NCBI GenBank assembly: GCA_950295325.1
Contig: OX485804.1
Span: 18,476,001-18,540,000, forward strand
Direction of reading: 5' to 3'
Length of the DNA stretch: 64,000 nt
Origin: Polytrichum commune
Taxonomy: Eukaryota; Streptophyta; Polytrichopsida; Polytrichales; Polytrichaceae
The notes under the pieces were generated by a model. The model was not told where the DNA came from. It searched no databases and saw only the letters and a list, made by a program, of their open reading frames with translations. Positions 9,007 through 59,673 of the stretch are shown piece by piece (within the stretch, counting starts at the first letter, position 1; each line of letters starts with the position of its first letter). Position numbers and translations under genes: made by a program.

Positions 9007-10245
9007 TCAGATTCTTGAGCCCTGCAACCATGTAGATGGAGGGGAGATTTGCCTAGGTACAAACTGTTCCCGAATTGCAGGGGTCCAAAACTGGCCAAAG
9101 AGTTCATGAGGATCAGCAGAGAGTCGTCGACGTTGTGATGGGGGAGGGTTAATTGCGAAGTCATTAGGTTGAGAATCTAGGATGGTGGTTGTATCCTCAT
9201 CACGATCCGAAGCTGGTTGGCCGAAGTCATTCCCAAAAGCATTTAGATCAGCTACCCTCCTCTTGTCTGTAAACAAGTCGGAGGAATCATCCTCACAATC
9301 ATCATCAGCATCATCTTCTTCATTCAAATCTCCTCTAAACCCTAACCCTTGTGTTGGTGCAGGTGCAGGTGCAACAGGCGTGTTGGAGCAGACTCCAAAC
9401 CGAGGAGGAGCAGGCTCGTTGGAGGCAGCAACTTCGGCAGCAACCTGTACCTTGAGCTTTGCAAGCTCTTGGGTCATGCGGAGGTGGAGCCACTGTTTAG
9501 CAAGGTCACAGGTAATGTTCTTATCCTCTACTGTAAACAAGCTAAAAGCATTTTACTGAGCAATTTGCTCAGCTTTCTTCAATGTAGCTGCAGCAAAGTC
9601 AGTTGTAGCTTTTGCATTAGCGCGCAAAACTAGCTCCTTTCCCTTACTTTGTGCATGCTCGTTTTTTGCCGACTTAGCACCCTGTGGTCTTGTCTGTGCA
9701 GGTGGCGATTCGGTGGAGGGAGCCTGGCCATTCGGAGAAAGCAGATCGCGACGATCAACAGGCAGCCCCTCTCTTGAGGGCGGATAAAACCCTCCACCCT
9801 TTCGCTTGCCCATAAATATTGCCGCAAACCTAGGATAGCTCTTTAACAACAACCAGCAATGTTTTAGAACAAATGCCTTCCCACATTTTTGCTTGTACAA
9901 GCTCATAGCATCTAATACAAAATCATCCTCACTCTTCCCACTCTCATTCAGATCTCTCACTGACTGATAGCAACCACTGAACTTGGCGACAGATTGCTTG
10001 ATGTCAGACCATTTTGTCTCTAGAGACCTAGCAGGACGATCAGCTCCTCCCTCGGGTTTGTGTCTAGCATAGTGCGTTGCTACATTGATCCAAAATTGTG
10101 CATTCTTCTGCCCTATCCCTCTCCTGGCATCGGTGGAAGTATGCATAAAACTTCGGCAACACTGTTCTTCCTCCTCCGGACAGAAGTTCCTGCCCTTCTT
10201 GGTCCTCCCACCCGTTGCAGGCACACCCCCCCCCCTTCCTGACAT
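9007..10245 (-). pseudogene. Myb/SANT-like Harbinger accessory protein with one internal stop
   Basis: The 230-codon N-terminal part starts at the ATG at 10243-10245 (MSGRGG...). It has a Myb/SANT-like domain at about residues 18-120 with the usual spacing of aromatic residues: an acidic start, FWINVATHY, LETKWSDIK, a KFSGCY motif, then W-LLKSYPRF. A basic, Ser/Pro-rich linker follows. An in-frame TAA at 9553-9555 interrupts it, and the same frame stays open for a further 177 codons to 9007. That second part has the K/L/Q-rich helix and acidic tail typical of NAM-associated proteins of plant Harbingers. Such proteins bind transposon ends and help the transposase into the nucleus. A nonsense mutation is the simplest reading, and a short unrecognised intron is the alternative. 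The start lies about 220 bp inside the right end of the element. Confidence 0.72.
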
Positions 10246-47308: not shown

Positions 47309-47320
47309 TAGAATTACAGA
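47309..47320. repeat. LINE target site duplication (left)
   Basis: TAGAATTACAGA is repeated exactly at 59662-59673. Confidence 0.88.
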
Positions 47321-47372
47321 GGAATTGAATGGATGGGTGGATGGTTGGTAAGGTAGCTCGGGGGAGAGGAGA

Positions 47373-50300
47373 ATGAGACACACAGAGCGATGGCGAGTAC
47401 GCCGCGGCACTCAGCTCCTCCGAGAATGGAGATCCGGCAGCCAAGACAAAGAATGCAGGGTTACAGACAGAAACCTCAGGCAGACAGAAACTTCAGATAT
47501 ACAGAGGAAGGATCCACCTACTTCCGAAGCAACAGATCCACAGGCAGAGTGCGCGCAGGATCGAAGAAGCACTAACCCAGATCCAGATCTGGGAATCACC
47601 CACAAGGCGAACACCGAACCAACGAGGACCAACACCGAATCACCACGGCGAGAGAGCCAAGAGCCGACTACAGCAAGAGCGCACCGAGGAGAGAAGAAGA
47701 ACTTAAACACAGATCCAGATCTAAAAGCAGACAAGGGAGGAGCATTTCGGCCAGTATGCGACATCAACCTTGGGGTCACACCCCTCTTCATAAAATGGGT
47801 GCTTATAAGCACCATGACTTTGTGTATCTACACACCTCACACATCTCACACACAAAAGCTCCCCTCACCAACCTCTCCATCAAGATGCCACTACCCCCCA
47901 ATGCGGCCACACACTATCTACCCATCAAAACACCACACAATAACACTAAAAGAAATCCCACCATACTTCCACTCCCTACTACCAATCCTCACGAACACAA
48001 CCCTACACCACCAACAAGAGCCACCTCCAAGATCGGCACGCACTCCACACACACCAATGCCGCCGCCGCCGCCACCCACACCACACAAAACAACACACAC
48101 AATGGTTAGAAACACCACTTGCACTTACCAATCACCTACCAACACCAAAAATCACCCAAATACCCAAAACACACTAGTTCCAAACTTACCTCCAAGAAAA
48201 GTACATCGCCGCCCCAAGATCCTCCCCACAAAGCAAGATAAGCTACCCCTTTGTCAGAAAACCACCAAAACACACATAAGACATAAGCAAAACGCTGTCA
48301 CACACACATGCTCACCACCCACAACCCCAAAAAATGCCCACCCAACAAACAATCCAACCCACACAAAGCATACAACCCCCCAAACTCAACCAAAATCCAC
48401 ATCACTCCCCCATATTAGATCTGACATTCCAACCCATCACCCTAAGTATGTAGAAACCCACAAAACCAACCTCCCAAATCTACTCACACACCCAAAAACA
48501 ACAGACCGCCGCCCATCTCTCTCGCTCCACACACACACTCAAATACCTTCCCAACACACACATTCTCACACTCCTCTCCCTCTCACATCGCACATCTCTC
48601 TCCCTCCCACCTCCCACACACCTCTCCCTCCCACCTCACACACATCTCTCACACCTCACACCACCTCTCACACCTCTCTTCCCACCCTCCCAGACACAAT
48701 GACACCCAGCAGTAAGCCAGTAGCCGCGGACTCAACAGCAGCGTCCCGAATGCAGCGCCTCCGCCACTCAGGATCAAGCAGTCGCAGCCTCAGGAGTCAA
48801 GCAGAAGGGAGAAGGGAGGAGAGAATCAGCGGCGGGCAACCCAACACCGGCGCAGGTGCGGAAGCGGGAGGCGCCAGCGGGTTCCACATTGACACAGAGG
48901 CGGGAGCGGGAGAGGGAGGCGCATGGGAAGCAGCCAACGGCCGGGGAGCAGCCAGGCTCTACTCGGCAGAGAAGCAGCCAACGGCCGGGAAGGAGGCAGC
49001 CGGAGCAGCTAATGGCAGTGAAGGAGGCGGCTCTAGAATCGAGGTCGGGAGCACCAACAGCAGGCACCGTAACACCAGCACCCGAAGTGCAGGAAGAAGG
49101 AGGGCACTTATCCAAGATTACAGTGAGGATGAAGAAGAGATCGACATACCACCTAGCCAACCAGCAATTTTTAAAGAGAAAACCACACCATACCATGATG
49201 CCGACATCGACATGCAACTCGACAATGTCACACCCGAGCATGGGGGAAGCTCCCTCCACATTTCTACCTCAAACGATGAGTACTTGGCCGCCCCCCGCCA
49301 AGCCGTCATGTCGCTCGACCGAATGGACATCACCAACCTCGATGACGCGACACCTCCCAACAACCCACACAAAAGTCCTAGGATAGAGTCCGTGAAAGAC
49401 ACACAAAGCACCAAACGTAGGAGGAGCGAAGTAGGGGGTCATGCACTCAACTCCGACGCAAGCAAACTTTCAAACACGCGCACCAAAGAGGCAATCCCAA
49501 GCATTGACATTGTGTCACACATGTGGTTAGGCTTCTCAATACACGAGGCCATCGCTACACAAAGGGGTAAGGGAATCATCCATGAAACTCGTACCCTTGA
49601 GGAATTTGAGAGATTAGGGACCCCCACAAATGAAGTCATAGAGTTCAAAACCATTAGACGTGCATTTCCAAGAGTACCACAAATATGTTATCCAAATGAG
49701 AGGCCGGATGCGGTACCCGGTAACCACCTCCACTTCATGCAAATTCCAAGGCAAGAAAGAGTGGACACCACCACCGGACTTTCCGAGGGCTTCCACATCA
49801 CCATCCGGTTCGACTACGGCTTCAAAAGCATGAGCAAACACGAAGCACGAGGAGCATGTGTGGAACGACTACGACAAATGGACATCCCACTTGGCTCAAC
49901 TTACTCCAACCCAATCGATATTGGGACCAATGCCGTCACCAAACATTGGGCGGGTTTCATTAAGGTACATCTAAAAAACCCACAACAAGATGGAATAGCG
50001 TTACTTAGAGGCCATAGAGCATTTGCTATGGCAATGGAGGATGGTGAAAGGGTCATAGGTAAAGTAGAAAAGGGGTATGAATTAGTTACTAAAGCCCGCA
50101 ACCTAAGGTTACACCTCAAAGGTGAAACCCTCCGCCATGAACATGCATCTACCATATTTGAGTCACTAATGCAAGAGAGTTACTACAATGGCCACCAACA
50201 CGAGTTTATGGGTTTTGCCAAACCGGAACTCGATAAAAATTTTGTTTTTCTTACTCTCACCATGGAGGAGGCTAGGGATTTAGTACTCAAGGAAGGAATT

Positions 50301-51125
50301 GTTTACAACAATGAGAGGTTACAAGTGAGCATCACCCGCCATAGGAATGGCAACAACCCATCCGAACTCCGAATTAGCACAACTCTAGTGGCTAATAACC
50401 TCCCACAACGTGAGACACCAACCGCCATCACCAAGGCCATCAAGCAAATTTTTGGAGAAGACAATGTCGTAGGCATTAGCTTTGGCAACACTAATCAAGG
50501 CACCACCAACAAGCAAGCAGGATGGTGCCACATTCAGTGTCTTAACGCCGCGGTCTACACGGCATGGAAACACAAGTCTACCTACATTCTAGGACGACAC
50601 ATCGACTTCATTCCGCACCATGGGAGCATCGATGGAACGGCCCCCAACAAGACGGCGATCCGACTAGCTCAAGCTCCCGTTAGAGAAGTCATCGCGGATA
50701 AAATCCAAGCTATGGGTAATGCCACCAACCTCCACCCACTCATCACCGAGAAGCATCTTACAAAAACCATGAAGGAATTCGAGAATAAACTAGATGAGAA
50801 GTTTAGCTCTCTCACTACCACCATAAACAACCACACGGATCGGAGACACGATGCAACCACAACGACCATCACCAACCACTCCACCAACCTCCATGCGCTA
50901 CTTGGTACGATAGCACATGAGTTCCAACAATCCAACATCCGCATGCAAGGCATCATCACCGGTCTCTCCACCGCCGCCCCGGAACTATTGCATAGGTCCG
51001 CCCCATCACCAACAATACACGGCCTCAATACAACCGCCCTACCTCTACCACTCCAAGCCCCCCCCCCCGGATTCCAAAACAACCAACAAATGTACCATCA
51101 AGGACCCCACACATTTAATGGATAG
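47373..51125 (+). CDS. LINE ORF1 protein with RRM-like domain
   Basis: The open frame is 1,250 codons. The first 440 or so are low-complexity (Thr, Pro, His, Asn) and may be 5' UTR open by composition. The ATG at 48699-48701 (residue 443) is an alternative start giving 808 residues. Residues about 450-720 are charged and disordered, with a basic TKRRRSE motif that could serve nuclear entry. Residues about 720-1030 look folded. Residues about 1003-1095 have an RRM-like pattern (a strand with TTLVANNLP, a helix, then AGWCHIQC as a candidate RNP-type strand). A heptad-like stretch at about 1130-1205 (KTMKEFENKLDEKFSSL) suggests a coiled coil. ORF1 proteins of LINEs bind element RNA and act as chaperones. 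No zinc knuckle was seen. It ends about 320 bp before the listed ORF2 start. Confidence 0.75.
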   Translation: MRHTERWRVRRGTQLLREWRSGSQDKECRVTDRNLRQTETSDIQRKDPPTSEATDPQAECAQDRRSTNPDPDLGITHKANTEPTRTNTESPRRESQEPTTARAHRGEKKNLNTDPDLKADKGGAFRPVCDINLGVTPLFIKWVLISTMTLCIYTPHTSHTQKLPSPTSPSRCHYPPMRPHTIYPSKHHTITLKEIPPYFHSLLPILTNTTLHHQQEPPPRSARTPHTPMPPPPPPTPHKTTHTMVRNTTCTYQSPTNTKNHPNTQNTLVPNLPPRKVHRRPKILPTKQDKLPLCQKTTKTHIRHKQNAVTHTCSPPTTPKNAHPTNNPTHTKHTTPQTQPKSTSLPHIRSDIPTHHPKYVETHKTNLPNLLTHPKTTDRRPSLSLHTHTQIPSQHTHSHTPLPLTSHISLPPTSHTPLPPTSHTSLTPHTTSHTSLPTLPDTMTPSSKPVAADSTAASRMQRLRHSGSSSRSLRSQAEGRREERISGGQPNTGAGAEAGGASGFHIDTEAGAGEGGAWEAANGRGAARLYSAEKQPTAGKEAAGAANGSEGGGSRIEVGSTNSRHRNTSTRSAGRRRALIQDYSEDEEEIDIPPSQPAIFKEKTTPYHDADIDMQLDNVTPEHGGSSLHISTSNDEYLAAPRQAVMSLDRMDITNLDDATPPNNPHKSPRIESVKDTQSTKRRRSEVGGHALNSDASKLSNTRTKEAIPSIDIVSHMWLGFSIHEAIATQRGKGIIHETRTLEEFERLGTPTNEVIEFKTIRRAFPRVPQICYPNERPDAVPGNHLHFMQIPRQERVDTTTGLSEGFHITIRFDYGFKSMSKHEARGACVERLRQMDIPLGSTYSNPIDIGTNAVTKHWAGFIKVHLKNPQQDGIALLRGHRAFAMAMEDGERVIGKVEKGYELVTKARNLRLHLKGETLRHEHASTIFESLMQESYYNGHQHEFMGFAKPELDKNFVFLTLTMEEARDLVLKEGIVYNNERLQVSITRHRNGNNPSELRISTTLVANNLPQRETPTAITKAIKQIFGEDNVVGISFGNTNQGTTNKQAGWCHIQCLNAAVYTAWKHKSTYILGRHIDFIPHHGSIDGTAPNKTAIRLAQAPVREVIADKIQAMGNATNLHPLITEKHLTKTMKEFENKLDEKFSSLTTTINNHTDRRHDATTTTITNHSTNLHALLGTIAHEFQQSNIRMQGIITGLSTAAPELLHRSAPSPTIHGLNTTALPLPLQAPPPGFQNNQQMYHQGPHTFNG

Positions 51126-51449
51126 TGCCCCCTTAGCATATCACAAATGGCCGCTCTACCTTATATGTTATAGTTTGATGTTATCTTATAATAAAGAGCC
51201 CACATTCTTGTTCCTACTCCAAGTACTCTCTTACTTTATGTATCTCTCTACATATCCCCCCTATAGCAAAAAATATACAAACACACTAAAACCATTGTAT
51301 TGGCACAACAAAAACACCCACACTAAGCACCATCAAATACAAACCGGAAAACCCATAAGGAAGCTGCCCCCACACACATCACCAATCCCCCATACACACC
51401 CACACTACCGCATGAGAAAAATAATAACATTAAGTCTCACCCTCATAAT
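51126..51449 (+). other. ORF1-ORF2 junction with a possible leader frame
   Basis: A different frame is open from inside ORF1 (50917) to 51489, with ATGs overlapping the ORF1 stop and at 51412. The latter gives MRKIITLSLTLIIWIS, which looks like a signal or membrane segment, and then enters a run of about 12 Cs (about 51461-51472). A one-base length change or slip in that run would join it to the ORF2 frame. The ORF2 frame itself is closed by TAA at 51324 and has no ATG until 51852, and the TTG at 51450 is only a nominal start. Confidence 0.5.
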
Positions 51450-54400
51450 TTGGATAAGCCACCCCCCCCCCCGTCACCCACCAAGATAATCTTACATACC
51501 ATAACAAATCCAACCCCCATAACCACCCCACCAAAAAAATTCCCATTTAGTATAACCTTCACACATAACAAGACCCACTACACAACCCCCACTTACAATC
51601 TAATACAACATACACCCACAACACAATCCCTCATTAACACCTTAATCCCTTCCACACACCCCCTCAACAACCATATATATAATAAACCACATTCATGCAC
51701 ATCCCACAACCACTTCACACAACAACCACACCCACTTATCACATACCACCCCAACCCCAATAAAGGCAACACCCACACTTACAATACACACAAACACTCC
51801 TACAACAACTGTAATACCCAACATAACACCCAAAATAAGATAACCTCACCAATGGCCCCAATAGACATACTAACCCTCATAAGCAACATATATCACATAA
51901 CGCACACCCATCATAAAAATCCAAAAATTAAATCCATAAAATATTACACTTGGAACAACTCCGCAATAATCCTTCAACACGGAGATGTGGAACCTAATCC
52001 TGGCCCAATATCACAAACTCCCATGAACCGACCTCAAGAATACACACATACACAACACCAATATGTTATACCCAAAATACTAACACTCAAACCCCAATAT
52101 GGACACCTAGAGGAATTATTTGAATTTCATGCCTCTTCCCCCCGAAACCTAAACCTAACACCCTTACAACACAAATCATCAGTCCACACACAAAAAGAAA
52201 TGCCACAATCTTACCTAACGGAAACACCAACAACACCCACACTACAGTCACATACACTCCCACTCCCACCACACATCACGCTATCACCAAAACATCAACA
52301 CATCGATAATAATCACACACATTACCACAATAGTATTTTCACTACCTTCTCCAAACACGAAACTAACCAAAAAAAAGGCACCACATGTACATCCACCACA
52401 CATGAACAAATACACAACCTACACACAAATCACAACAACACAACCCACACAATCACCCTCATTAATATAATGATACATATAGGCAACATCTACTACATAA
52501 CACACACATACCACACAAAACCAAGAATTAAAACCATAACATATTACACTTGGAACAACTCTACACTCATACTCCTCCACGGAGACATTGAACTAAACCC
52601 GGGGGCGCTCTCAACCATCCTCAAGAACCTCCCCAAAGAATATACACAAAGGCAAAAACAATACTTTATTCCAAATACCCTAACACTCAAACCTCAATAC
52701 GCCCACCTTGAAAAACTATTTGAACCCCATTTAAACAAAAACACCCCCGACTCTCAAGAACTAACACACCTAAAAAACCACTCATCATTACTCTCAAACT
52801 ACCCCACACACCACCAAATATATGCCCTTATTATAACATATAGCCCACTACCACAAATATGTAATCAAAAAATGACTAACAAACTTGACCCCAGATACCT
52901 AACCATCCTCCGAAGAATACAAAAAATGCCAATGAATATGCACCCACGCACATCATATGAACATAACTTGCATACCCCAACAATAATCACCATTCCACAA
53001 GCTTATTCCATCATCAATGACAAAATCGCTAAGGGAATACCCATAACCGCAGAAAACCTACAAAATGAAATATCCCACCTCCCAAATAAAATAGTGCAAG
53101 AACTAACTAAATGCTCCCACACAATAAAAGGATACCAACCCAACTCACACATACCTAACTATGACATTCCACACATACATACCAGGCCAAATAACCCAAC
53201 AACCCAAACCCTGAAAATAATCACTTGGAACACTGGATGTATCAACTCTAGCCTCCCCGGTATCCAAGACCTCACCCAAACACTACACAACAACCCTCAT
53301 ATTATACTCATCCAGGAAACCAAAATCCCAAAAACAAAATCCACATCATACATAGATCGCCAACTAAAAGAATACAAAATCATATACAACAACTCAAACA
53401 CCACATCCCAAAGACATAATAAATATGCGGGCCCCACGCAAGCTAGAGGTGGCATCCTAGCCATGATACCAATATCAATATACACAAACGAAAACATCAC
53501 CAAAATACCAACCCCAAGCCTAATCTCACCTTACCTACAAGCCATAATAATCAATAACAAACCACTAACACCGCTAATCATCCTAAACATGTACATGCCA
53601 TCACACATAGAAGACGAGTACCTAATACCCGAAATCCAAAACCAAATTCAAAACATCATAGTACAACACCCCCACCACACCACCATACTAGCCGGAGACT
53701 TTAACCGAGACATACTACTACAAGGAAGAACCAATAATAGCACTTCCACCCCGCCTAATATGGAGGACCAAGAATGGGCATGCTTCATACGAAACAACGG
53801 ACTCAAAGTGGTCCATAACCCAGTAAAATTCACAAGGCAAGGAGGCCACAACTACACATCAACTAGCCATATAGATGGCTTCTACACCAACGACCCCAAT
53901 ATCACCAATCTTCATAGCCACACGCTAACCAACCTAAACCAAAACTCGGATCACTACCCAGTCCAACTACAATTAGCCCCCAATACTATAGTCATCAAAG
54001 AATCCACCACCCCCATAAACACCCCACGAATCACATACCCCATACCCCCTAACAACCTCCAAAACTTACAAACAACCTTTATAGGAAAACAAAATATAGC
54101 AATAGAGAACCTTACACAAATACTCCACCAAGAATATCTTACCCCAACACAATGGGAAGACACACAATTCAAACTCCAAGAAATTATCAACTCTCTCAGT
54201 CAATGCATAGAACAAACATGCATGACCTACCCCACCCCACCACTACCAAATAGGGTAAAACCTCAAGGAGGATTTCTCCCCAGGACCCAACAGAATAAAT
54301 GGAAACATCAATTGAAAATATACCATAACACCCGGAAAGCCATAAGAGCCGCATGTCACTACCCGCACACACAACTACATAACCACTCAGATATAAAAAA

Positions 54401-55928
54401 TCTTCAACTACTAAGAAACCCCAATATTCCACCACTACCCCCACATCCCACAGAAATACACACATGGATTGCTCAGCTAGCCACTATAGAGAAAAACGCG
54501 AAGACAGAAGCCCACAAAATCATAACCAAGCAAACCTCACTTAATTGCAAAGCCGCCATTAACAAATATAGAATCCTACTAAATACTAAACCCAAAATCA
54601 TCCACAAAAAAATATTTCACCCAACAACCACCAACACACTCGATTGTGTACAAAACCCCCAAGGTCAAATCCTCACCAAACCCGCCGAAATAGCTAGGGA
54701 GATATACCATACCCAACAAACCTCATTCCAACGACAAGCCCCCCTATATGAGGACATCACGGACCACCCTAATACGTGCATATGCGCAATAAGAAGATAT
54801 CCGTGGCACTCACATCAAGGAATCATTCTAGAAAAACGAGGCAACCCCAATACACAAATAAGTAACCAATTCACTAGAGAAGTGTACGATTGTTGCGTCA
54901 AAAGCCTAACAAAAGGGAAAGCCCCGGGCCTAGACAATATCCCAAATGATATCATTAAAACACTACCCACACAATGGCAAGACCTCCTATACCTATTTTC
55001 CAAACATTGTTACAAACAAAGAACGATCCCGCACTATTGGAAACATAGTAAGACCATCTTATTACACAAAAAAGACGACCCCACCCACATATCCAACTAT
55101 AGACCAATCTCCCTAGCTAATACAATCTATAAACTATACACTAGTACACTAACATCACTCTTAACAAGCTACGGAGAAAAACATAGATTACTACACTTTA
55201 GCCAAGAAGGCTTTCGACCACAACGAAATACCTCGAGACAAATTCAAACGATCATAGCAACACTAGAAGATGCAAGACTAACCACAAAAAATATATACTT
55301 AACCTATATAGACTTTAGAAATGCCTTCGGCTCTATAGACCACGCAAGACTCCTAGCCATAATGGAGGACCTAGGCTACCCATTAGACGCGGTAGAAATC
55401 GTAGGTAATATCTACACCAACTCCACCACATCCTTCACCGGGAGTCATTTTGGCACGACACCCCCAATAGAAATAAGCCGCGGGACCATACAAGGGGACA
55501 CCCTTAGCCCATATTTTTTTATCATTTTTCTCGAACCACTACTAAGATGGCTAGAAAAAAATAACATAGGTTATCATTTCAACACGTCCTCCGCCACATG
55601 TACCACAACCGCATACGCGGATGACCTAGCTATTATAACGGACCACATATTACATATTCAACCACAAGTGACAAAACTCCAAAAATTCGCGAAATGGTCC
55701 CACATGGACCTCAATCTATCAAAATGTGTCATTACCGGATGCCCTAATAAATCTAAACTAAAACCCTCTACCTTCAAAGCATACATCCAATCACAACATA
55801 TCACATACAACTCTCAAAATTTCCCCATTCTCACCCAAAACGAACCATATACATATTTAGGAATAAACCTCACACCATCACTCAAATGGAACCTACAAAA
55901 AGAAATAACGATGAAGAAAGTCAAATAA
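51450..55928 (+). CDS. LINE ORF2, 5' part: 2A motifs, APE endonuclease, reverse transcriptase
   Basis: This is the first 1,492 codons of the retrotransposition enzyme. The start is uncertain: TTG at 51450, the first in-frame ATG at 51852, or a frameshift from the leader. Residues 178-186 are GDVEPNPGP (2A) and 378-386 are GDIELNPGA. The APE-type endonuclease spans about 588-845, with Asn in TWNTG (594), Glu in IQET (623), GDFN (749-752), SHID (D809) and SDH (834-835), all expected for nicking target DNA. The reverse transcriptase spans about 1150-1450, with PGLDNIPND, NYRPISL, YIDFRNAF, GDTLSP and the catalytic YADD (1389-1392). A TAA at 55926-55928 stops it within the region after the RT palm. 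The same frame then stays open for about 300 more codons, so the stop is most likely a nonsense mutation. Confidence 0.88.
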   Translation: MDKPPPPPSPTKIILHTITNPTPITTPPKKFPFSITFTHNKTHYTTPTYNLIQHTPTTQSLINTLIPSTHPLNNHIYNKPHSCTSHNHFTQQPHPLITYHPNPNKGNTHTYNTHKHSYNNCNTQHNTQNKITSPMAPIDILTLISNIYHITHTHHKNPKIKSIKYYTWNNSAIILQHGDVEPNPGPISQTPMNRPQEYTHTQHQYVIPKILTLKPQYGHLEELFEFHASSPRNLNLTPLQHKSSVHTQKEMPQSYLTETPTTPTLQSHTLPLPPHITLSPKHQHIDNNHTHYHNSIFTTFSKHETNQKKGTTCTSTTHEQIHNLHTNHNNTTHTITLINIMIHIGNIYYITHTYHTKPRIKTITYYTWNNSTLILLHGDIELNPGALSTILKNLPKEYTQRQKQYFIPNTLTLKPQYAHLEKLFEPHLNKNTPDSQELTHLKNHSSLLSNYPTHHQIYALIITYSPLPQICNQKMTNKLDPRYLTILRRIQKMPMNMHPRTSYEHNLHTPTIITIPQAYSIINDKIAKGIPITAENLQNEISHLPNKIVQELTKCSHTIKGYQPNSHIPNYDIPHIHTRPNNPTTQTLKIITWNTGCINSSLPGIQDLTQTLHNNPHIILIQETKIPKTKSTSYIDRQLKEYKIIYNNSNTTSQRHNKYAGPTQARGGILAMIPISIYTNENITKIPTPSLISPYLQAIIINNKPLTPLIILNMYMPSHIEDEYLIPEIQNQIQNIIVQHPHHTTILAGDFNRDILLQGRTNNSTSTPPNMEDQEWACFIRNNGLKVVHNPVKFTRQGGHNYTSTSHIDGFYTNDPNITNLHSHTLTNLNQNSDHYPVQLQLAPNTIVIKESTTPINTPRITYPIPPNNLQNLQTTFIGKQNIAIENLTQILHQEYLTPTQWEDTQFKLQEIINSLSQCIEQTCMTYPTPPLPNRVKPQGGFLPRTQQNKWKHQLKIYHNTRKAIRAACHYPHTQLHNHSDIKNLQLLRNPNIPPLPPHPTEIHTWIAQLATIEKNAKTEAHKIITKQTSLNCKAAINKYRILLNTKPKIIHKKIFHPTTTNTLDCVQNPQGQILTKPAEIAREIYHTQQTSFQRQAPLYEDITDHPNTCICAIRRYPWHSHQGIILEKRGNPNTQISNQFTREVYDCCVKSLTKGKAPGLDNIPNDIIKTLPTQWQDLLYLFSKHCYKQRTIPHYWKHSKTILLHKKDDPTHISNYRPISLANTIYKLYTSTLTSLLTSYGEKHRLLHFSQEGFRPQRNTSRQIQTIIATLEDARLTTKNIYLTYIDFRNAFGSIDHARLLAIMEDLGYPLDAVEIVGNIYTNSTTSFTGSHFGTTPPIEISRGTIQGDTLSPYFFIIFLEPLLRWLEKNNIGYHFNTSSATCTTTAYADDLAIITDHILHIQPQVTKLQKFAKWSHMDLNLSKCVITGCPNKSKLKPSTFKAYIQSQHITYNSQNFPILTQNEPYTYLGINLTPSLKWNLQKEITMKKVK
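51852..52133 (+). other. 2A module 1 (apparently functional motif)
   Basis: This is a roughly 94-codon module with a hydrophobic or aromatic lead (KYYTWNNSAIILQH) directly before GDVEPNPGP at 51981-52007. The D-V-E-x-N-P-G/P consensus is complete. In known 2A peptides the ribosome fails to form the Gly-Pro bond, releasing the upstream peptide and continuing from Pro. The module goes on to LTLKPQYGHLEELFEFH, which is also repeated in module 2. Confidence 0.82.
52452..52733 (+). other. 2A module 2 (degenerate duplicate)
   Basis: It is offset from module 1 by exactly 600 bp (200 codons) and is similar along its length at both DNA and protein level. The motif reads GDIELNPGA at 52581-52607. The final Pro, needed for skipping, is Ala here (codon GCG), so it is predicted inactive. 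The surrounding YYTWNNS and LTLKPQY motifs are kept. Confidence 0.8.
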
Positions 55929-57150
55929 CAAAGCCAACTCTTAACTACCTCACCGGCTAGCCTCACACAAAAAATCAAAATCTTAAATACAGTCATTAAA
56001 CCGCGAATAGCATACGCTTATTACGCCGTCCCATTCTCCAAACCGGATATTAAAAAATTAGACAAAATCATTAGCAAATTAACCAAAGAAATTTGCAACA
56101 TTCCTAAAAGCTCGGCCAACATTCTCACCCACCTCCCACAAGAGAGCTTTGGCATTAACGTCAACTCCCTACTACCCGACTACATCCGATGCATAGGACA
56201 ACAATTAATCCAAGCACTTAACGACCCGGGCCAATTAGGCATTATATACCAAGGGCTAACCAAACATATAGCGGCCAAGTATGGTGGGGCCCGATACCTC
56301 CCCAAACTCAAACAACAAGCATGTGTCCGTTCCCCTATAGCCCGAACACTCTTCCTCCTTGAAAGAGAATATGAAATTCACGTCCATTCCACAAGCCAAG
56401 CATTCCCCATCAAAGAAACATCACTAGAAAGAATTTGGAAAACCAACCCAAATTATAACACCCTAACGGATATATCCAAAGCCAAGACCCAAAAATATCT
56501 AGACAAACTATACATATACGGCATTACCACACTAATACAAATCCAAAACTCTACTACCAAAGCCATACTAACCCCGAAAGAATTTCAATCCATTTACAAA
56601 CACATACCCAAAACCATCAAGGAGGCTCTCCAACAAGCAACAATAATGTTCCCCCCCCCACCCACAAACTCTACAAACACAATACAACAAACACCAACAC
56701 AAAGCGAGGGCATGGTGAATATCCCCCCCCCTAGGACAAGCAATCCAAACAATAATAAAAGAAAAGACCTCCACCAAAAAAGACAAATGGGGTGCACAAG
56801 CAATAAGGACGAACTACCTTTGCCAATGGCAAACTCCACAAGGCATCACACAACAATGGAGAAGTGAGGTAGAACTACTACACCCGGATAATATATTTCT
56901 AGAACATAACATACTATGTATTACACAATATCACACAAAGCAAGCTGAACTATTAACCACCCACACATATGCTAATTGCCTCAATCACATACAATCAAAA
57001 GACAACAAATTCATACACCCCCCTCTTCACATCACCAACCTAAAATTATCCATACAAGAATGCAACCCGGATAAAGACATTCAAGTAAACCAACCAACCA
57101 TCCAACTACAAAACTCCGAAGCCAACATATATGACCAAAAAGGAAACTAC
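55929..57150 (+). pseudogene. LINE ORF2 middle part, beyond the stop and through a frameshift
   Basis: The RT frame continues past the 55926 stop with coding-like sequence (thumb and connection region, for example IKILNTVIKPRIAYAYYAV and KQQACVRSPIARTLFLLERE) to the C runs near 56650 and 56723-56731. Beyond these the sense frame moves forward by one base and runs without a stop into the 57151 frame (WGAQAIRTNYLCQWQTPQG). One extra C in either run explains the shift. The 73-codon ORF at 56646-56867 is the old frame running on after the lesion. Confidence 0.78.
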
Positions 57151-59463
57151 ATGGCCACCATCACTACAGAAAGGCTACAATGGCTATGGAACCAATTTTC
57201 TTACCACCACTTCTCACAAATTACAAAAGCCCTCCAACCCCCACCACAAAACTTTGAAACTGAAATACTTTGGCTAATACAAAGATACATAACCATACTC
57301 CCCAAAAGAAAGCCAAAAAACATACAACCCCAAAACATGCACCATACAATACACCCGACAATTATCACAACATTAATAAACTCCCTCAAAATCACGCACT
57401 CCTACTATTCATCCCCACTCACATGCCCCACACAACTCACACAATATCACTCACCCCATAACCGAGACATAATATTTGGCTCCCTAGGACACGCACAAAT
57501 ATCTAGATGGAAAGGCATTGGTTTAGCCTACCCCACAGACCATAAAACAACCATTGAAGCCATCCACTGGGCTAGAATGGCGGCCAAAGAAGACTCAAAC
57601 ACGATCACCATACTCATAATCAACCATAACGACTGGACCACACAACAAATCCCACTTACCACAAGTGGCGACATACACACCCTCGCAACCATCCCTCCGC
57701 ATACCATACTATATAACCCTACGCCGGAATGGCCAAAATACTACCAATACGTGGAACCCTCGCTCACAACAATACTATGTATACATAACCACGCCCACCT
57801 CACACCAAGCCTAAAAACCCCACAAGATCTCGCACAAGTACTAGAACATACCATCAACGCACCCATAGACACATTCCCCATCAAACCCACAACGCCAAAT
57901 TACCACATTAAATTCTCAAACATATGGAAAAACGCCCCCATAAAAAACATCCCTCCCCCACCAACAATCCCCCAATCAAACCTCCCCATTAAATATTACC
58001 ACCAACACCCCCCCAAATTCCACCCACAACATTGCATGTACACAGATGGCTCATTTATTCCACCAACTAAGAACTCCGAAGGTCAAATAGAGGGTGATAT
58101 CGCAGGTTCAGGAGTATATAGCCCCAACGCAAACATCCGTATAGCAGAACGATTACCAGGATATCAAAACATACTTAGAGCAGAATTAAATGCTATACTC
58201 ATAGCAGTCAAAACCATTCAAGTCACAAAAATCGAAACACACATCTTTACAGATAGCCTTAATAGCATATATCTACTTAGTAATCATATACAACACCCAA
58301 CCTCACAACACCACCACCCGGACAAAATCCTCATAGCCGCCATAATACACCAAATTTATCTAACACCACACTTAGTACATATACATAAAGTACGTGCCCA
58401 CACGGGCATCAAAGGAAATGAAATAGCCGATGCGCTAGCCAACGAAGGCACAAATATAGAAAAACCCACTCCCACACCCCATATACACATCGCACACGCT
58501 ACACCATATTGGCTAGCAAGTTGTCCCACAGCCACACGTAATGGGGCAATCCGCAACTTGCACACATTCATCACAAAAACACACGAAAAACAAGAAATTA
58601 GGCTGGCCCAACATAAACACCCATATGTAGACAAATGGCTATCCAACGACCAAATAAGCCACAAACTCTCCAACCACTTTTGGAAAAACAATAAAATAAC
58701 GGACGCCCAAATCACCCAAACTTTAAAATTTCGATATGCCCAATACATGGGTAACCATAGAAAGAATATTTTCTGGCCCCTCAAATTTCAAAACCCAAAC
58801 TGTACATTATGCCGTAAAAATGAAAGGGATACATGGCCACACTTACTCTCAACGTGCGAACACCCATACTTAAAGGGCCTAAGAATAGCACGCCACAACA
58901 AGGCAGTACATCTCATCACCCAAACACTCCAAGCCAACAAACACACCAAATATTACACACTAACAAATGCAGGTAATATCAACAACAACAAGCAAGAACA
59001 AACAGTCCCCGAATGGCTCATCGAATGTCTATGCCCTCAAACCGGGTGTCAGTGTCACGCTAGACTAAGACCCGACATCCTATGTATTATAGGAGCCCCT
59101 AACCACACCCCAACACCCATGCTACCATCCCACGCACGAACCATCCAATTCATTGAATTCACGTACTGTCACGACAGATTCCCAGAACAAGCCATAACAC
59201 ACAAACATGCCAAATACGATCCATTAATCAACACTATACAAAGCAAGGGATGGAAAATAAACCCTCTTATAACCATCACAGCAGGAGTTAGAGGTGCCAT
59301 ACACGAACACTCCATCAAAAAATTAGAAGACCTCAAAATCCCAAAATCTAATATCAAAATCCTCATGAAAAACATACACCAAAATGCCATCAAATATCTC
59401 ACATACCTCGTTTTAAATAAAAGAAAACTCGATAACAAAAAAAATCCCGTTGCACCCCCCTAA
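57151..59463 (+). CDS. LINE ORF2, 3' part: RNase H, CCHC, RLE-like nuclease
   Basis: This is the continuation of ORF2 in the shifted frame (770 codons). The listed ATG is not a true start, because the frame is open upstream. RNase H spans about residues 293-435: YTDGS (D299), RAEL (E345), TDS (D368), then a VRAHTGIKGNEIADALA motif (D427). All four acidic residues are present, for removing RNA from the cDNA hybrid. A CCHC knuckle follows at C551, C554, H564 and C569. The C-terminal region (about 630-720) has RPD (D642), FIEF (E669), AKY (K688) and an ITAGVRG strand. These resemble the PD-(D/E)xK restriction-like endonuclease that follows the CCHC in R2, R4 and Dualen elements. The RLE call is by motif only. 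Confidence 0.82.
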   Translation: MATITTERLQWLWNQFSYHHFSQITKALQPPPQNFETEILWLIQRYITILPKRKPKNIQPQNMHHTIHPTIITTLINSLKITHSYYSSPLTCPTQLTQYHSPHNRDIIFGSLGHAQISRWKGIGLAYPTDHKTTIEAIHWARMAAKEDSNTITILIINHNDWTTQQIPLTTSGDIHTLATIPPHTILYNPTPEWPKYYQYVEPSLTTILCIHNHAHLTPSLKTPQDLAQVLEHTINAPIDTFPIKPTTPNYHIKFSNIWKNAPIKNIPPPPTIPQSNLPIKYYHQHPPKFHPQHCMYTDGSFIPPTKNSEGQIEGDIAGSGVYSPNANIRIAERLPGYQNILRAELNAILIAVKTIQVTKIETHIFTDSLNSIYLLSNHIQHPTSQHHHPDKILIAAIIHQIYLTPHLVHIHKVRAHTGIKGNEIADALANEGTNIEKPTPTPHIHIAHATPYWLASCPTATRNGAIRNLHTFITKTHEKQEIRLAQHKHPYVDKWLSNDQISHKLSNHFWKNNKITDAQITQTLKFRYAQYMGNHRKNIFWPLKFQNPNCTLCRKNERDTWPHLLSTCEHPYLKGLRIARHNKAVHLITQTLQANKHTKYYTLTNAGNINNNKQEQTVPEWLIECLCPQTGCQCHARLRPDILCIIGAPNHTPTPMLPSHARTIQFIEFTYCHDRFPEQAITHKHAKYDPLINTIQSKGWKINPLITITAGVRGAIHEHSIKKLEDLKIPKSNIKILMKNIHQNAIKYLTYLVLNKRKLDNKKNPVAPP

Positions 59464-59636
59464 ATATTTCCCCACCACTCCTTTACAATAACCCCCTTAC
59501 ACTACACTTTCTCTTTCTTTTTACTAACAGAGCCCACCTCCTAACGGAGGTATAACTCCCCATGCTACAACACGGCCCGCCGTGTTTAGCATTCGGACAA
59601 CGGGCTCGCATTCACGCCGGCACAATGTGCGGGCGT
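59464..59636 (+). promoter_or_regulatory. LINE 3' UTR with three hairpins
   Basis: Three inverted repeats follow one another: CCTCC-TAAC-GGAGG (59537-59550), ACACGGCCCGCCGTGT (59570-59585), and ACGCCGGCAC-AAT-GTGCGGGCGT (59614-59636, one mismatch). They sit just before the tail, where a LINE reverse transcriptase with stringent template choice would bind. A role in target-primed reverse transcription is inferred. Confidence 0.65.
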
Positions 59637-59661
59637 TACTTTTTCTTTTCTTTTTCTTTTC
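59637..59661 (+). repeat. LINE 3' tail, TTTTC-type repeats
   Basis: After GGGCGTTAC the element ends in a T-rich run with TTTTC units instead of poly(A), up to the target duplication. Short tandem repeats at the 3' end are known from several LINE clades, while plant L1 elements normally end in poly(A). Confidence 0.75.
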
Positions 59662-59673
59662 TAGAATTACAGA
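59662..59673. repeat. LINE target site duplication (right)
   Basis: TAGAATTACAGA is identical to 47309-47320. Confidence 0.88.

Follow-up and report, generated by a model that had tools for sequence, protein, structure and literature searches.

A large LINE clade in a probable moss carries a conserved and repeated 2A module, whose activity is inferred. The second open reading frame (ORF2) of this LINE is best understood as a polyprotein divided by StopGo/2A peptides, a reading to which we give a probability of roughly 0.8; the skipping, the restart and the role of the leader are inferred from the sequence. Observed directly are the sequence of the module, its conservation, the continuity of the frame in some copies and the number of modules per element. 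If the modules are active, one LINE reading frame could yield several separate proteins.

The window element

The window, by which the whole analysed stretch of 64,000 nucleotides is meant, holds one copy of this APE-RT-RNase H LINE, and the element itself spans about 47321-59661. Its features are as follows.

47309..47320, no strand: 5' target-site duplication TAGAATTACAGA, a 12-bp word common to the 3' flank
47373..51125, + strand: ORF1 open frame, true start undetermined, ending in PPGFQNNQQMYHQGPHTFNG and the stop
51118..51125, + strand: ATGGATAG, the ORF2 start codon overlapping the ORF1 stop
51118..51489, + strand: N-terminal leader of ORF2, containing hydrophobic segments (MDSAPLAYHKWPLYLICYSLMLSYNKE...); in the window copy this frame ends at 51489
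51891..51980, + strand: 30 codons before the 2A core, including YYTWNNSAIILQH, under strong amino-acid constraint (dN/dS)
51981..52007, + strand: module 1 2A core, G-DVEPNPG/P, with the predicted skip between Gly 52002-52004 and Pro 52005-52007
52008..52130, + strand: conserved tail of module 1 (..EYTHTQHQYVIPKILTLKPQYGHLEELFEFH), from module matches and the motif-free tail profile
52581..52607, + strand: module 2 2A-like core GDIELNPGA, last Pro lost in the window copy
53220..53954, + strand: APE endonuclease domain (PF03372, residues 591-835 of the ORF at 51450)
55065..55871, + strand: reverse transcriptase domain (PF00078, residues 1206-1474, E 7.8e-32)
55926..55928, + strand: in-frame TAA interrupting ORF2 of the window copy
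58030..58449, + strand: RNase H domain in the 3' part of ORF2 (ORF 57151-59463; PF00075, residues 294-433, E 2e-14)
59662..59673, no strand: 3' target-site duplication TAGAATTACAGA, after the CTTTT-rich 3' end

A target-site duplication and a separate ORF1 are both present (LTRs lay outside the scope of the search), and a common word as long as the 12-bp duplication arose in 3 of 2000 shuffles of both flanks. The 3' part of ORF1 (48663-51125) gave no Pfam match at E<=0.001. Both the APE domain (E 9.1e-6, 26 bits, cut-off 24.5) and the RT exceed their Pfam cut-offs within the ORF at 51450-55928. The APE-RT-RNase H order is present but is not decisive for the LINE clade. Compared with PDB sequences, the RT matched R2 best, at 92 to 89 bits, and LINE-1 at about 55 bits, a comparison limited to solved RTs with no reference RT set. 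No relative turned up when viral contigs were searched with the RT.

The first-pass annotation had claimed an in-frame GDVEPNPGP, and this motif does occur at 51981-52007 (+); it shares its frame with Exo_endo_phos and RVT_1 in the ORF at 51450-55928. The window copy is one decayed member of a family, with its first core intact and its second core lost. The frame that opens at 51118 closes at 51489 and differs from the frame of the motif, and a TAA follows at 55926-55928. Module 2 lies in the same frame as module 1, 600 nt downstream, and has diverged. A sister copy (L003) shows 99.25% identity with the window over 4653 nt and has NPGP in both modules; unlike in the window copy, its ORF2 leader frame continues without a stop across both 2A cores.

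The 3' end of the element (59640-59661) is CTTTT-rich and not poly(A), unlike a typical L1, and GC-rich, inverted-looking stretches were seen by eye in the 3' region before it. The sense strand of 47321-59661 is strongly A/C-rich, with a GC skew down to -0.575 in 2-kb windows, a composition that favours open frames and proteins rich in H, T, N and P. Between RT and RNase H, at 57229-57495, a match to PF12237 (PCIF1_WW), presumably the family of the cap m6Am methyltransferase, was found at 31.6 bits against a cut-off of 31.1; in ORF2 of L073 (residues 1876-1964) the match reached 28.5 bits and fell below the cut-off. A PDB sequence search gave no support for this match, and modelling of the stretch between RT and RNase H gave a structure of too low quality for use (mean pLDDT 40). 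Outside the element, at 9007-10245 (-), two adjoining ORFs resemble a transposon-associated Myb/trihelix-like protein, by impression from reading only.

Distribution of the core in the genome

The genome searched is an assembly of 407.8 Mb in 64 contigs, seven of them of 42-78 Mb. The E-type core D-(V/I/M)-E-x-N-P-G-P (GAYRTNGARNNNAAYCCNGGNCC as a DNA pattern) gave 273 matches and its reversed-pattern control 0; D-I-(H/Q)-x-N-P-G-P gave 153, and the control again 0. An E-type core with Ala as its last codon occurs once in the genome, as module 2 of the window. Replacement of the last Pro by A, S or T was found twice, that module included, against 273 intact cores; replacements beyond these three residues were left out of the genome-wide count. 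Counted in DNA, 92 core sites are encoded by 58 different words.

One hundred of the 273 canonical sites were listed, and 30 of these, all on contigs C1 or C2, were fetched as sites: 10 picked for variety and 20 taken from C1 away from the listed APE hits. The tail of this LINE follows the motif in 30/30. It was judged by eye in the 10 variety sites, where L047 changes frame, and by profile in the other 20, where a match was obtained at 20/20 loci, that of L102 in another frame.

Searches less dependent on the motif

A tail profile free of the motif was run on 71 loci (the window and L003-L072), the majority of them retrieved through the module or the pattern. The profile matched 72 times, in 53 loci; no match was found in 18 of the 71, some of which visibly possess the tail (e.g. 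L063 and L065). NPGP stands directly upstream in 65 of the 72 hits. The other seven comprise three with NLGP, NSGP or NPGA and four without a match, among which L004, L047 and L058 carry the motif in another frame and L036 reads NPDP. Copies lacking the motif had been named in advance as grounds for refutation, and the claim survived this check, with NPGP at 65 of 72 motif-free hits and the last Pro changed in 2 cases against 273.

When 20 loci were chosen by APE alone, NPGP was found in 13 and NLGP in one. Six had no motif in the fetched stretch: L053, which has a module hit some 2.8 kb further upstream, and L056, L057, L059, L060 and L062, which may be truncated copies. The APE search scored 149 of 1145 candidates. 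Distances between APE and core were taken from the 54 APE hits that fall in the part of C1 and C2 covered by the listed pattern matches; 33 of the 100 listed canonical sites were assigned to them. A canonical core lies no more than 3 kb upstream of APE in 32 of the 54 hits, and in 30 of those 32 cases it lies 639-675 nt upstream. It is absent within 3 kb upstream of the remaining 22, some of which, for example L073 and L074, have H, Q or K at p14.

The damaged state of the window copy might suggest that the motif arose by chance in a single decayed copy. The near-fixed distance between core and APE, and the counts of 273 and 153 sites with none in the controls, leave this explanation with practically no credit, and a chance origin was ruled out by the genome-wide counts.

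Variation and constraint around the core

Residues were counted at 68 sites found through the tail. The reading pattern limits p12, p13 and p16-p18, with N16 and G18 fixed by it, and leaves p11, p14 and p19 free. Gly is found at p11 in 67 sites, Asp at p12 in 65 and the last Pro in 67, while p14 is E in 40, H in 14, Q in 12 and K in 2. Lys at p14 was seen in L054, L068, L069 and L074, with NPGP retained. At least three of the five residues at p6-p10 are hydrophobic in 61 of the 68 sites. The hydrophobic stretch reported earlier before the motif is likewise present: YYTWNNSAIILQH precedes the window core, and an Ile/Leu-rich stretch and a Gly precede the cores.

The papers cited here by PMC number were each available only in part, and statements about them are limited to those parts. 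The StopGo core has been given as (D/G/C/N)(V/I)ExNPGP, with L-rich (A/S/C)G-D classes upstream (PMC12846837). The window core at 51984-52007 meets this definition and window module 2 (NPGA) fails it. Directly upstream the window reads IILQHG, with Q and H at p9-p10, as against the A/S/C preferred at p10 by the class. The variant with H at p14 was more than 95% active and earlier E14Q mutants 26-56% (PMC12846837). Lys at p14 is not among the residues reported as active in the available parts of the papers, which counts against skipping in the four copies that have it. Since H and Q are the main p14 variants in the moss LINE cores and activity has been reported for p14=H and E14Q, these variants were counted in favour of skipping.

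In four sequence groups, dN/dS was 0.47-0.78 in codons -110 to -31, 0.12-0.33 in codons -30 to -1, 0.09-0.16 over the core and 0.16-0.47 in the tail. The core value is biased because the sites were found by the core pattern, and the pairs of copies are not independent. In 10-codon bins, constraint starts near -40 in all three groups tried and ends near +50 in family 1, and the spacer upstream of -40 is near neutral; the bins are ungapped, so that far bins are possibly misaligned. The 2A is conserved as amino acids within one frame in family copies, the window copy itself being broken.

Since constraint extends into the tail behind the motif, a role of the module in folding remains possible. 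The motif could then serve structurally, in a folded domain at the ORF2 N-terminus, without skipping, and its likeness to 2A would be a matter of convergence. This appears improbable, as the rules of StopGo are followed (p14 mostly E/H/Q, Gly at p11, p6-p9 I/L-rich, last Pro in 67/68) and the residues further upstream vary widely among subfamilies. Division of ORF2 by skipping remains the preferred reading.

Anatomy and start of ORF2

The end of ORF1 was searched for in 73 records and found in 21, representing 20 distinct places (L040 lies within L073), and in none of the other 52. In 21/21 records with the PPGF...stop end of ORF1, ATGNNTAG overlaps the ORF1 stop. The first-pass annotation had put the motif at the start of ORF2, with a peptide cut off from the N-terminus. 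This placement does not hold, as the conserved ORF2 ATG lies at 51118, 863 nt upstream, where it overlaps the ORF1 stop. The part cut off would be no short peptide: from ATG to first core, 165-354 codons were counted in the 11 open records. These records (10/20 places) are L003, L006, L008, L012, L017, L027, L028, L030, L035 and L040/L073. With the frame from ATG to first motif open in 11/21 records, the objection that the motif might lie outside the translated part of ORF2 did not refute the claim. No such open frame was found in L020, L022, L025, L032, L041, L042, L055, L058, L074 and the window (10/20 places); L074, of family 2, has 551 codons from ATG to first core, with one stop between.

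L006, with an E core, is open from the ATG through the 2A to the end of the fetched piece (1050 aa), and L035 stays open across three motifs as far as its piece extends (1046 aa). In L073, two motifs (GDIQPNPGP and GDIHPNPGP), the APE region, RT and RNase H are joined in one 2382-aa frame from the overlapping ATG. This is the one copy shown open across all domains, and its p14 residues are Q and H, not E. Its PF03372 match scores 22.6 against a cut-off of 24.5, and its APE region is 65% identical to that of the window over all 255 aa. Most family 1 copies share the first ORF2 residues, M(D/N)S....W....ICxI....YNKE or near. In 19-residue windows, hydrophobicity of the leader peaks at Kyte-Doolittle values of 1.1-1.8, borderline for membrane helices.

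A start of enzyme translation at an ATG downstream of the motif, which would leave the motif untranslated, was considered because family 2 has a Met after the core in almost all copies read (20/20 C1 loci; L052 is an exception); several copies, moreover, have no in-frame ATG in the open stretch upstream. Such a start is very hard to reconcile with the overlapping ATG in 21/21 records, 11 of them open to the first motif, with the absence of a conserved Met after the core in family 1, and with protein-level constraint that begins about 40 codons upstream of the core. For six of the 11 open records, the chance of the open stretch was 2e-11 to 3e-5 when judged by stops in other frames, and 4e-8 to 2e-4 from base composition alone. 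Translation of the motif within ORF2 is therefore retained. Another candidate, an ORF2 start at an ATG 43 codons before the core, was dropped, many copies being without that ATG.

Motifs per element were counted in 41 elements, damaged motifs and near-identical copies included: 23 have one, 11 have two and seven have three. Neighbouring cores are spaced by multiples of three in 19/25 cases and by 159-801 nt in 24/25. The earlier idea that a 2A separates an N-terminal peptide from the APE-RT enzyme is supported, as an inference from sequence, with corrections: 18/41 elements have two or three motifs, and ORF1 is a separate frame joined by the stop/start overlap, so that the 2A does not separate ORF1 from ORF2.

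Proposed mechanism

A fraction of ribosomes would restart on ORF2 where its ATG overlaps the ORF1 TAG. The restarted ribosomes would make the leader, with its hydrophobic segments, and a loosely constrained spacer, and would then reach one to three 2A modules. At each module the L/I-rich nascent chain together with G-D-(I/V)-(E/H/Q)-x-N-P-G is predicted to block the Gly-Pro bond, the upstream piece would be released and translation would resume with Pro; these steps are read from the amino-acid sequence. The last piece, no longer attached to the hydrophobic leader, would comprise the conserved tail and the APE, RT and RNase H domains.

A wider model, which we put at even odds, can be built upon this. 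A land-plant LINE clade would possess natural StopGo and a stop/start-coupled, multi-product ORF2, in which one to three 2As of graded strength (p14 E/H/Q/K) would give a membrane-leaning leader, small accessory proteins and free APE-RT-RNase H in set proportions.

The modules may instead be mainly attenuators, at which many ribosomes stop at NPG, with a lower dose of APE-RT relative to ORF1 and leader as the result. Some picornavirus 2As end translation at NPGP without detectable restart (PMC11512398), two or three motifs are present in 18/41 elements, and the common H/Q/K variants at p14 may differ in efficiency. This possibility deserves attention but is the less likely one, since core and final Pro are as conserved as efficient skipping would predict, module number varies, and 23/41 elements have a single motif. 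The division of ORF2 into separate products thus stays the favoured reading.

Relation to known systems

Odon et al. 2013 reportedly described 2A in APE-type LINEs of animals, and Heras et al. 2006 are said to have described, in the LINE L1Tc of Trypanosoma cruzi, a functional 2A that shares the frame of the element's proteins. The reported animal elements resemble the moss LINE in having a 2A-like core in frame with the APE-RT enzyme. The moss LINE differs in its land-plant host, in its one to three modules per ORF2, in the presence of RNase H, in the position of the 2A well inside ORF2 (at 165-354 aa in open copies) and in the overlap of ORF1 stop and ORF2 ATG. L1Tc is alike as a LINE reported to have a functional in-frame 2A and differs by another host kingdom and a single 2A.

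With the L-rich upstream motifs 2 and 6 of viral StopGo, the moss LINE has in common the core octapeptide, Gly at p11, I/L-rich p6-p9 and p14=H, and its upstream chain resembles the LLLLSG-D class that is active in vitro; it differs from viral StopGo as a cellular mobile element (PMC12846837). Several 2As per genome occur in viruses, and some end translation (PMC11512398). In multi-2A picornaviruses several cores also lie in one frame, about 50-150 aa apart as against 159-801 nt in the moss LINE, whereas capsid and replication polyproteins are viral; sequences between the cores were left out of this comparison (PMC11512398). The echinoderm signal SpNLR2A6 shares with the moss LINE a 2A-like sequence and hydrophobic character, but there the 2A-like sequence is the N-terminal signal itself, while leader and 2A are separate in the moss LINE (PMC4981915). 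The definition of an N-terminal 2A signal is not met, given the 165-354 codons from ATG to first core.

The available part of a 2026 survey reports no evidence of natural StopGo in plant viruses and describes StopGo as rare in cellular organisms and largely viral (PMC12846837). A natural 2A in a plant LINE was not named among the papers listed, judged by titles and opening lines of abstracts, Repbase and most subscription journals being outside the scope of the search, and the parts available of PMC5009743, PMC5348765 and PMC7466625 contain nothing on it. An echinoderm 2A-like signal sequence was active in Nicotiana benthamiana, which indicates that 2A works in plant cells (PMC4981915), and 2A is used as a tool in plants (PMC12371167).

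If active, the moss LINE would show how a single frame can supply several proteins. With its several hundred conserved cores, such a clade of plant mobile elements would offer plant-evolved 2A sequences, including natural H/Q variants and tandem arrays. These variants are material to test how sequence sets efficiency, and the modules could serve as plant-adapted 2A parts for multigene expression.

The host genome

The host of the LINE is supported as a land plant and is probably a moss, on account of NAC-domain exon matches and an LHCB sequence closest to a moss structure. NAC-domain exons, which we take to belong to a plant family, gave 28 matches in the genome and were found in 0/14 control genomes. 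Light-harvesting genes are represented by 58 PF00504 matches. One LHCB protein scored 482 bits with PDB 8htu and 480 with 7xqp, the other ordinary-length LHC chains reaching at most 447; the top entry, 9vfj (long, labelled LHCI-2), scored 548 but without any single passing stretch. The structure 7xqp comes from the moss Physcomitrium patens (PMC13066549). A set of seven chromosomes would be compatible with Polytrichaceae. A tandem cluster of fourteen equal-score LHC matches was also observed within about 95 kb on one contig (C5:1751760-1846160).
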